Positions 2,526-6,247 of a stretch of 64,000 bases of DNA are shown here, piece by piece (within the stretch, counting starts at the first letter, position 1; each line of letters opens with the position of its first letter). The DNA is taken from positions 62,001 to 126,000 of the forward strand of contig VFZE01000003.1 of the NCBI GenBank assembly GCA_016871315.1, written 5' to 3'. Source of the stretch: Acidimicrobiia bacterium (lineage in GTDB: Bacteria; Acidobacteriota; Terriglobia; Bryobacterales; Bryobacteraceae). Position numbers and translations under genes: made by a program. Under the pieces are notes generated by a model. That model was not told the origin of the DNA. It saw nothing but the letters and a program-made list of their open reading frames with translations, and made no database searches.

Positions 2526-3998
2526 CTAGCGATGGGAAGCCACGAGTGCGGCGCTTGATTCCAGGCTTTTCAGCTTGGCGGCGAAGGTGGTGCGCTTGAG
2601 ACCGAGCAGATCGGCGGCGAGTTTCTTGTTCCCGCCGGTCTTGCGGAGGGCCTGCTCAAGCAGGCTGAGTTCAAGCGTGCCGACGATGTGTTCAAAATCG
2701 AGGCCTTCGTCGGGGACGGCGACGTGGGGAGTGTTGGAAGCGGCGGCGGATCTGTTTTCCAGATGGGAAGGGAGGTGGAAGTCGCCGGGGTAGAGCTGCT
2801 GCCGGCGCTCGCCGCTGAGGGCGACGGCTTTTTCGACGGCGTTTTCGAGTTCGCGGACATTGCCGGGCCAGGAGTGGCGGCAGAGGCGCTGAAGAGTCTC
2901 CGGAGTCATCTGTTTGAGGAGGATATCTTCCTGGCGGCAGATCTTTTCGACAAAGTGGCGGGCGAGGGCGGGGACATCGGAGCGGCGGTCGCGCAGGGGC
3001 GGCATCTGGATGGGGACGACGTTGATGCGGTAATAGAGGTCCTCGCGGAAGCGGCCCTGACGGACGCGTTCGACGAGGTCGACATTGGAGGCGGCGATGA
3101 CGCGGGTATCGACCTTGATGGTCTCCGAGCTGCCGAGGCGCTGGAACTCACGTTCCTGGAGGACGCGCAGGAGCTTGGCTTGAAGTTCCATGGGCATGTC
3201 GCCGATCTCGTCGAGGAAAAGGGTGCCGCGGTGTGCCTGTTCAAAGCGGCCGATGCGGCTTTGGAAGGCTCCGGTGAAAGCGCCTTTGACGTGGCCGAAG
3301 AGTTCGGCTTCGAGCAGGTTTTCCGGCAGCGCGCTGCAGTTGACGGCGACCAGGGGAAGCGAGTAGCGGTTGGAGGCCATGTGGATGGCGCGGGCGGCCA
3401 TCTCCTTGCCCGTGCCCGTTTCGCCGGTGATGAGAACGGTGCAGCGTCGGTTGCCGATGAGGCGGACGGTTTCGACGACGTGCTGCATAGGGGTGGAATC
3501 ACCAACCAGGAATTGGCGCCAACGCTCGACGATGGGTTCCGGCGAGACAGTGCAGGCGGCGCGGTGAGCGGCGGCGGAGAGAATGGCGTCACCGATTCGG
3601 CGAGGCGAGGAAGAGGCGGGCAGATATTGAAAGGCGCCGAGCTTGACCATGCGGACGGCGGCGGCGACGTCGGAGGAAGGATCGGCGCCATCGCCGAGGA
3701 AGACGACGGGGAGGATCGAGTTGTTGCGTTGCAACTCCTCGAGCAGTTCCTCGGGGCTCCATTCGGGAATGGGGAGATGAATGAGAGCGGCGGCGTAGTT
3801 ACCTTGAGCGGCTTGAATGGCGGCGACGCCACCGGTGAAGAGGTCAACTTGAAAGCCAAGTCCTCTGAGATGATCTGCCACGGGCGAGGCGGGAGGGAAG
3901 CCGGCAACAAGGAGCTTGCCGGCCGCCGCAACGGTGGTGAATGCGGCCACGAGCATCCATCGGTGAGAGAGGGACGTTTTTTTAGCGTGAAGGGGCAT
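2526..3998 (-). CDS. sigma-54-dependent transcriptional activator with degenerate receiver domain
   Basis: A 490-residue NtrC-class regulator. Residues about 25-145 have the length of a receiver domain, but the acidic pocket is absent ([10 protein letters not shown] replaces the usual double aspartate) and the phosphoacceptor position reads [11 protein letters not shown], with His74 where Asp is expected. The AAA+ core is intact: Walker A GETGTGKE near 192-199, GAFTGA near 239-244, Walker B FLDEIGD near 261-267, and the R-finger region [13 protein letters not shown] Fis-type helix-turn-helix closes the protein ([18 protein letters not shown]). It should activate sigma-54 promoters but cannot be controlled by ordinary phosphorylation. 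It is divergent from the rhodanese gene by 35 bases and upstream of phhA on the same strand. Confidence 0.9.
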
Positions 3999-4033: not shown

Positions 4034-4447
4034 ATGCGAAGGCTATTCCTGAAACTACTGCTCGGCGCGCCTACGTTTGTGAGCGCGGTGTGGGCGCAAG
4101 AAGCGAAGCCGGAACATGCCAAGAGTCTGACTACCGAGGAGCTCAAGGAGATTGTGGAGGGGAAGGCGAAATACTTTTTCCTTGACGTGCGTGAGCCGAA
4201 GGAGTTGGAGGATCTGGGCACGATCAAAGGCTACGTGAATATTCCGGTGAGCCAGATGGAGAAGCGGATTTCCGAGATTCCAAAGGACGTGTACGTAGTG
4301 GTTGCTTGAAACCGGGGCATCCGGGCCGCGCGTGTCGCGGCCGTTTTGGAAAAGCACGGTTACAAGCAACTGTCCTACTGCGGACTGGCGGAATGGAAGG
4401 AAAAAGGGCTGCCGCTTATTTATCCGAAGGCCGAACAGGCTAAGTAG
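4034..4447 (+). CDS. secreted rhodanese-like sulfurtransferase, probable selenoprotein (in-frame TGA at 4307-4309)
   Basis: Read through TGA 4307-4309, this frame gives 137 residues. Residues 1-21 look like a cleavable signal peptide ending VSAVWA. The rhodanese domain follows: FFLDVREPKELE, GYVNIPVSQ, then YVVVA, the TGA as residue 92, and NRGIRAARVAAVLEKHGY, with a typical C-terminal AEWKEKGLPL. In the family the active-site loop is C-x-x-G-x-R and the TGA sits exactly at the cysteine (92, with Gly95 and Arg97 in place). The tail keeps rhodanese character for 45 codons to TAG 4445-4447. A hairpin just after the TGA resembles a bacterial SECIS. The alternative is a recent nonsense mutation of a Cys codon. 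The 3' end overlaps the convergent cpfC gene by 8 bases. Confidence 0.75.
4324..4342 (+). promoter_or_regulatory. putative bacterial SECIS hairpin after the in-frame TGA
   Basis: GGCCGCG at 4324-4330 pairs perfectly with CGCGGCC at 4336-4342, leaving the loop CGTGT. That makes seven GC pairs with a five-base loop containing G-U. The stem begins 14 bases after the TGA and the loop begins 21 bases after it, which fits the usual bacterial geometry, where SelB reads an apical-loop G shortly downstream of UGA. Outer pairing is weak. GC-rich DNA makes chance hairpins common, so this counts only together with the position of the TGA. Confidence 0.55.
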
Positions 4448-5423
4448 GAGCGGGGCAGCAGTCATCCGGACAGACGTCGGGGCAAAGGGGAAGTGTGCCG
4501 AGGGAGAGCCGCGGCGCGGCGGGGTTGGTGCGCTCGAGGACCAGCGTGCGGATCATTTCGACGAATTGCGGATGAGCGCCGACGGTGGCGGCGCGGCGCA
4601 TGGGGAGATTGAGTTCGCGGCAGAGGGCGGCGGCTTCCTCGTCGAGATCCCAGAGCACTTCGACGTGATCAGAGAGGAAGCCGATGGGGGCGATGGCGAC
4701 GCCGGGGATTTTTCCGGCAAGGTTGCGGAGGGCGTCGAGGACGTCGGGATCGAGCCAGGGCTGCGAGGGCGGGCCGCTGCGGCTTTGATACACGAGACGC
4801 CAGGGGGGATTGCCGCACATGTCGGCGGTTCGTTTGCAGGCCTCCTGAAGTTCCTCTTGATAGCGCGAGGTTTTGGCCATGGAGACGGGGAGACTGTGGG
4901 CGGTGAACAGGATTTCAGCGCCGGCGGGGAGAGGGGAGAGTGCCTCGCGGATGTTGGCGGCCATGGGTTCGAGGAATCCGGGGTGGTTGAAGAAGTTGCG
5001 TAGCTTGTGGATTTCGGGGGCGGCGTCGCCGACTTGGCGACGGGCGTCGCGGATGTTCTCCAGGTACTGCCGGCAGCCGGAATAGGAGCTGAATGCGGAG
5101 GTGACAAAGGCGAGTGCGCGGCGGACGCCGTCCTGTTGCATCTGGCGGATACTGTCGGGGAGCAGAGGATGCCAGTTGCGGTTGCCGATGTAGACGGGCA
5201 GGGCGGGCCCTTTTTCAGCGAGGCAGTCGCGGAGTGCGGCGGCAAGATCGCGGACATGCTGGTTGATGGGGCTGCGGCCGCCGAGGTGGTAATAATGTTC
5301 GGCGACTTCGAGCAGGCGTTCGCGCGGGATGCGGCGTCCGCGGACGACGTTTTCAAGAAACGGCATGACCTCATCGCGGTTTTCGGGGCCGCCAAAGGAG
5401 ACGATCAGGATCGCTTCGTACAC
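4440..5423 (-). CDS. cpfC: ferrochelatase, coproporphyrin-type (CpfC) with C-terminal cysteine cluster
   Basis: Inserts iron into a porphyrin, in this context coproporphyrin III. The 327-residue sequence starts ILIVSFGGPE, continues RGRRIPRERLLEVAEHYYHLGGRSPIN, and has the catalytic region TAHSLP (His176) and FLSDHVEVLWDLDEEA (Glu255), which is closest to actinobacterial enzymes. The C-terminus ends in a Cys-rich tail with C314, C318, C322 and C323, and C117 sits internally. Actinobacterial ferrochelatases hold a [2Fe-2S] cluster with one internal and three C-terminal cysteines, so a cluster is likely here too. The start is GTG 5423. It is divergent from chdC with 32 bases between. hemH is the older name. 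Confidence 0.92.
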   Translation of the reverse strand: MYEAILIVSFGGPENRDEVMPFLENVVRGRRIPRERLLEVAEHYYHLGGRSPINQHVRDLAAALRDCLAEKGPALPVYIGNRNWHPLLPDSIRQMQQDGVRRALAFVTSAFSSYSGCRQYLENIRDARRQVGDAAPEIHKLRNFFNHPGFLEPMAANIREALSPLPAGAEILFTAHSLPVSMAKTSRYQEELQEACKRTADMCGNPPWRLVYQSRSGPPSQPWLDPDVLDALRNLAGKIPGVAIAPIGFLSDHVEVLWDLDEEAAALCRELNLPMRRAATVGAHPQFVEMIRTLVLERTNPAAPRLSLGTLPLCPDVCPDDCCPAPT

Positions 5424-5455
5424 ACAACAGGTTTACCACGGCTACACTGTTAGGA

Positions 5456-6247
5456 ATGGTCCCATTGACGCTGGAAGGTTCCTATTGTTTGCATCAGATG
5501 TTGCGGCTGCGCTGGCCTGCCTGGAAGGGTTTGGAGGCGGCGGCGCGGGAAAGAATATTGAAGCAGGCGGCGGAGGCGCTGGCTGCGCTGGAGCCGTCGC
5601 AGAGCGCGGCCTATTCGATGGTGGGACACAAGGCCGATGTCATGCTGGTGCATTTCCGGCGGACCATGGATGAGTTGAACCAGGTGGAATGGCAGCTGGC
5701 GCGGCTGGGACTGTGGGATTACGTGGAACTGGCCTCGAGCTACGTCTCGGTGGTGGAGCTGGGGCTGTATGAGACGACGGGGAAGTTGCACGATTCGCTG
5801 ACGGCGCAGGGAGTGGAGCCTGACTCGGACGCCTACAAAGCGGCGGTGGAAGAAGAGCTGGCGCGGCAGAGGAAGGCGATGGAGCCGCGGCTGTATCCGG
5901 CGGTGCCGCCACATCGCTACATCTGCTTTTATCCGATGGATCGTAAAAGAGGAGAGGAGAAGAACTGGTACCAGGTTCCGTTCGGGGAGCGGGCGCACAT
6001 GATGCATTTGCACGGGATGATCGGGCGCAGGTATGCGGGTCATGTGAAGCAGATCATTACGGGTTCGATCGGGTTTGACGATTGGGAGTGGGGCGTGGAT
6101 TTGTGGAGCGAGGATCCGCTGTGGTTCAAGAAGCTGATCTATGAGATGCGGTTCGATGAGGTGAGCGCGGTGTACGCGCTGTTCGGGGTGTTCGTGGTGG
6201 GGATGCGGTTGCAGCCGGCGGAGCTGGCTCCGCTGCTGGCGGTGTAG
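5456..6247 (+). CDS. chdC: coproheme decarboxylase (HemQ/ChdC)
   Basis: Oxidatively decarboxylates coproheme III to protoheme, the last step of the coproporphyrin-dependent pathway, using peroxide. The 263-residue protein belongs to the chlorite dismutase fold family. The ChdC signature is clear: FYPMDRKRGEEKNWY carries the reactive tyrosine (Tyr159), and HMMHLHGMIGRRYAG carries the axial histidine (His186). The two are 27 residues apart, as in the Staphylococcus enzyme (Tyr145/His172). ITGSIGFDDWEWGVDL follows. A chlorite-dismutase distal arginine is not expected in this class. The gene is divergent from cpfC, so consecutive pathway enzymes share one intergenic region. Confidence 0.95.
   Translation: MVPLTLEGSYCLHQMLRLRWPAWKGLEAAARERILKQAAEALAALEPSQSAAYSMVGHKADVMLVHFRRTMDELNQVEWQLARLGLWDYVELASSYVSVVELGLYETTGKLHDSLTAQGVEPDSDAYKAAVEEELARQRKAMEPRLYPAVPPHRYICFYPMDRKRGEEKNWYQVPFGERAHMMHLHGMIGRRYAGHVKQIITGSIGFDDWEWGVDLWSEDPLWFKKLIYEMRFDEVSAVYALFGVFVVGMRLQPAELAPLLAV

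Follow-up and report, generated by a model that had tools for sequence, protein, structure and literature searches.

A very probable rhodanese selenoprotein of the UxxG kind in Acidobacteriota, with selenocysteine or cysteine at one catalytic codon

A gene in the window (the whole stretch of DNA analysed, 64,000 nucleotides) is very probably a selenoprotein gene, of a UxxG rhodanese kind that has already been listed but little studied. From sequence comparisons, we regard it as very probable that it encodes an exported single-domain rhodanese into which SelB, tRNA-Sec and a hairpin located just downstream would insert selenocysteine (Sec) at UGA 4307-4309. This reading of the TGA is based on the codon pattern among homologues, the decoding machinery, selection acting after the TGA, the SECIS hairpin and the co-occurrence of TGA forms with the machinery across genomes. 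The initial annotation had predicted a selenoprotein at this place, and none of the refutation tests that were run counts against it.

Table 1. Features of the rhodanese locus, in coordinates of the window.
Feature	Position	Strand	Basis
Divergently transcribed sigma-54-dependent activator (NtrC type)	2526..3998	-	Pfam Sigma54_activat 1.5e-71; recurrent neighbour in the family
Predicted gene for a 137-aa rhodanese selenoprotein, with codon 92 for Sec and TAG 4445-4447 as stop	4034..4447	+	Frame, Pfam, orthologues with TGA/Cys at codon 92
Probable N-terminal signal peptide, MRRLFLKLLLGAPTFVSAVWA^QE	4034..4096	+	Read from the sequence
UGA predicted to be read as selenocysteine 92, catalytic position of a CxxGxR-type loop (UNRGIR)	4307..4309	+	Homologue codons
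Predicted bacterial SECIS hairpin located 21 nt past the UGA, with apical loop CGUGU (4331-4335) on a stem of 7 bp (4324-4330/4336-4342)	4324..4342	+	Fold, homologues, published rules
Cys116 codon, frequent in Sec forms, possible partner of Sec92	4379..4381	+	Homologue alignment

The rhodanese gene and its codon 92

The frame opens with ATG 4034 and extends over 91 codons to TGA 4307-4309 (codon 92), which is the sole interruption of frame 4034-4447 and is followed by 45 sense codons and TAG 4445-4447; the initial description of rhodanese sequence continuing for 45 codons past an in-frame TGA proved correct to the base. The 137-residue read-through product matches the Pfam family Rhodanese PF00581 (4.5e-13, 50 bits, curated cut-off 22.2) over residues 33-123, so that the rhodanese domain spans the TGA, and the UxxG motif U92-N-R-G95 lies within this match. 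Solved rhodanese chains were also matched by the read-through product, and the TGA aligned with the catalytic Cys of homologues, which is where the initial annotation had placed it within a C-x-x-G-x-R loop. An AlphaFold model calculated from a ten-row alignment had a mean pLDDT of 81, and its best Foldseek matches were rhodanese domains, among them those of polysulfide and persulfide sulfurtransferases. A sulfurtransferase function of the product is predicted from its family.

When 151 genomes were searched with the read-through protein and the best homologue per genome was examined (n=70 acidobacterial genomes), codon 92 was TGA in 50 cases, TGC or TGT in 20 and anything else in none. These counts, like the other homologue counts given here, ignore relatedness; the exception is the midpoint-rooted protein tree, on which at least nine changes between the Sec and Cys states are needed, with well-supported branches enforcing three of these. 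The cysteine that had been anticipated at residue 92 of close homologues was thus found in 20 of them, and the random stops elsewhere that would speak for decay were seen in none of the 70. A search of 297 genomes across the phylum added ten TGA forms belonging to other classes, and Cys was present in those of the weaker matches that were examined. The Sec swap at this position is seen in about sixty related genomes altogether. Gly95 is present in 68/70 homologues and Arg97 in 70/70, and both occur in all Sec forms (Gly95 in 50/50). For 18 pooled pairs, the ratio of non-synonymous to synonymous changes was 0.29 for the part preceding the TGA and 0.24 for the part following it, which indicates that purifying selection persists downstream of the TGA.

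Single-TAG flags in two genomes (G027 and G098) had raised the idea of Sec being encoded by UAG, which was rejected as the catalytic codon is TGC in both genomes and the TAG presumably is the terminal stop. A pattern scan of contigs was biased towards Cys forms, since one pattern had Cys at the Sec position, and its matches in other phyla are therefore uninformative on Sec there. Loci in named records include Bryobacteraceae and Acidobacteria, and the sequence around the Cys codon is identical in a Bryobacteraceae record (L085) and in the locus of G048, a genome belonging to the same family as that of the window, so that the window very probably comes from a member of the Bryobacteraceae.

Decoding signal, machinery and other explanations of the TGA

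The genome containing this locus encodes SelA (485 bits), SelB (382 bits) and SelD (353 bits), all above the family cut-offs, and a tRNA-Sec with anticodon UCA (69.5 bits, above cut-off). Absence of this machinery had been named initially as a reason to abandon the selenoprotein reading, and all four components were found. The selD gene (L009, G000:C12:114032-114955, minus strand) has an in-frame TGA of its own near the N-terminus; the selenophosphate synthetase of this genome is therefore probably a selenoprotein itself, judging from its sequence, and provides a second gene that independently suggests UGA decoding. Another tRNA-Sec candidate (L013) was rejected as a tRNA-Ser. In one other acidobacterial genome (G115), two full-length selB matches were encountered (G115:C197:6211-8094 and G115:C17:10596-12518), one of which directly adjoins a tRNA-Sec gene. 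Among genomes at least 90% complete, selB or tRNA-Sec was present in all 40 with the TGA form, versus 4 of 18 with the Cys form in which both were lacking (Fisher p = 0.007), so that the Cys form is retained even in genomes without Sec decoding.

According to PMC13188914, a bacterial SECIS element lies 16-37 nt from the UGA and folds at -7.5 kcal/mol or lower, its stem comprising 4-16 bp and its apical loop 3-9 nt, with a G among the first two of these. The hairpin 4324-4342, the geometry of which had been judged suitable in the initial annotation, lies within all of these limits, with a loop of 5 nt (CGUGU), a stem of 7 bp, a spacing of 21 nt and a folding energy of -13.0 to -14.6 kcal/mol. 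As 17 of 200 shuffled sequences fold equally well, this hairpin on its own exceeds the shuffles only slightly and is weak evidence, being unexceptional in DNA so rich in GC, and an Rfam search did not return a SECIS match. Comparison of homologues was more informative. The loop CGUGY (CGUGC or CGUGU) occurs in 39/50 TGA forms versus 0/20 Cys forms, and for the five core stem pairs, 92% of the cells show standard pairing in the 41 main-type TGA forms versus 55% in Cys forms, with core pairing dropping to at most 71% when the register was slid. Also, the stem covaries, with pair 24-30 being GC in 20 and CG in 19 forms. The Arg codon within the loop (+8) is CGU in 39/49 TGA forms versus 0/10 Cys forms (p = 3e-6, relatedness ignored), and CGU is a minority Arg codon elsewhere in those genes (30/396). 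Strict rules for an uninterrupted SECIS hairpin were passed by only 26/50 TGA forms, versus 2/20 Cys forms. Nine TGA forms from two other families of the class (L063, L065-L068, L071, L072, L077 and L083) apparently use another hairpin, which has GGA or GUC as its loop and is located 17 nt after the UGA.

How else might the TGA be explained? It might be a nonsense mutation or a miscall in an ordinary Cys rhodanese, as a one-base change converts TGC to TGA and the resulting gene would be annotated as truncated. However, 50 of the 70 genomes share a TGA at this codon and none has scattered stops, purifying selection is maintained after it (ratio 0.24), and both the CGUGY loop and the CGU codon are linked to TGA forms. 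A sequencing error concealing TGC or TGT at 4307-4309 is excluded because independent genomes carry TGA at this codon, and pseudogene and miscall alike are refuted on this ground, their probability being negligible.

The frame would also be open if UGA were a sense codon, read as Trp, Cys or Gly through near-cognate suppression or a changed code. Against this, UGA terminates ordinary genes in the same window, for example that for phenylalanine hydroxylase at 1509-2444, and therefore the genetic code is not simply changed; with the Sec machinery complete, including tRNA-Sec(UCA), a changed code was rejected. As those relatives that lack the UGA invariably have Cys, the analogue of Sec, at this position, a reading of UGA as another amino acid appears very improbable. 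Sec insertion competes with termination, and the UGA might mainly serve as a selenium-dependent stop, most of the product then being a 91-residue fragment and only a minor part the Sec form. Such a fragment would be devoid of the catalytic residue and of about one third of the protein, and the part beyond the UGA is no less conserved than the part preceding it (0.24 versus 0.29), so we give this possibility next to no weight.

Export leader, Cys116 and genomic neighbourhood

The N-termini of relatives of the Sec rhodanese have similar leaders or leaders of the lipoprotein type, a simple pattern detecting a lipobox-like motif in 18/70, and residues 1-30 showed low pLDDT in the structural model. 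The signal-peptide-like leader together with the lipobox-like motifs in homologues suggests that the rhodanese family is probably exported. Cys116, which is located at a strand end in the AlphaFold model, occurs in 37/50 Sec forms and 8/20 Cys forms, and 13/50 Sec forms lack it; a putative Sec92-Cys116 pair, which may form in proteins having both residues, is a reasonable idea.

In about a dozen relatives, some having the Sec type and others the Cys type, a divergent gene for a sigma-54 activator adjoins that for the rhodanese. The activator may regulate the rhodanese gene, and inspection by eye of the region upstream of the latter revealed no evident sigma-54 promoter. On the other side, a small heme cluster (window 4440-6247) comprises genes for ferrochelatase (minus strand) and a HemQ-type heme synthase (plus strand). 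In flanks of about 1-4 kb per relative, L015 and L018 were the only relatives in which ferrochelatase was seen next to the rhodanese, as it is in this window; the heme neighbours, to which the initial annotation had drawn attention, are therefore probably incidental and their arrangement is not conserved.

Relation to known rhodaneses and proposed function

Rhodanese-like selenoproteins were listed in metagenome studies of 2005 and 2008 (PMC1088965, PMC2398784) and also in PMC9312934, and reviews distinguish five forms, two of which (forms 2 and 4; accessions MBM9537886.1 and MCY3690685.1) have the motif UxxG (PMC13188914). The statement of the initial annotation that rhodanese-like proteins occur among predicted bacterial selenoproteins was therefore accurate, and the UxxG type is included among them. 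By motif and domain, the product described here is likened to forms 2 and 4, with which it shares PF00581, a Sec that replaces the catalytic Cys and a Gly three residues further on (U-N-R-G). Form 3 (rhodanese_LYCAU, NF041203) is likewise a rhodanese-related (seleno)protein but has a CxU motif with Sec two residues after Cys, and the read-through protein is not a member (37.5 bits, cut-off 115). Similarly, TsoB (form 5, NF045694), a rhodanese/DsbD fusion, shares a Sec-containing rhodanese region but is far longer and has two Sec residues (19 bits for the read-through protein, cut-off 805; not a member). The Wolinella polysulfide-sulfur transferase (1qxn), PspE and GlpE share the rhodanese fold but have a catalytic Cys and lack Sec. 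None of the curated NCBIfam models scored the family above cut-off.

The suggestion that a signal-peptide form beside heme genes may be new has to be narrowed: UxxG rhodanese selenoproteins were already catalogued (PMC13188914) and the heme context is not a family trait. In the accessible parts of the literature on forms 2 and 4, neither Acidobacteria nor an export signal is mentioned, and published work on acidobacterial selenoproteins gives counts only. What is newly added here is the wide spread in Acidobacteriota, the repeated Sec/Cys switching, the export signals, the frequent Cys116 and the conserved divergent sigma-54 regulator.

By analogy with known rhodaneses, our best guess is that the protein works outside the cytoplasm, where it would transfer sulfane sulfur or remove it. 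Sec92 would attack a sulfane-sulfur donor (thiosulfate, polysulfide or persulfide), hold the sulfur in a selenyl-sulfide (Se-S) intermediate and then deliver it to an extracytoplasmic thiol or reductant. In forms that have Cys116, this residue may resolve the intermediate or recycle it via a Sec92-Cys116 bond. A wider proposal, of an unnamed phylum-wide Acidobacteriota family of exported Sec-rhodaneses with a Sec92-Cys116 pair for periplasmic persulfide/polysulfide turnover, controlled by the adjacent sigma-54 activator and having switched many times between Sec and Cys, is one that we consider possible but doubtful as a whole.

Genes of this type are annotated as truncated rhodaneses or are overlooked. 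The family offers a natural comparison, in which related genomes have either Sec or Cys at one catalytic codon, with the RNA signal being present or absent accordingly. Such a comparison allows testing what selenium contributes to sulfane-sulfur chemistry and how the replacement of Sec by Cys occurs.
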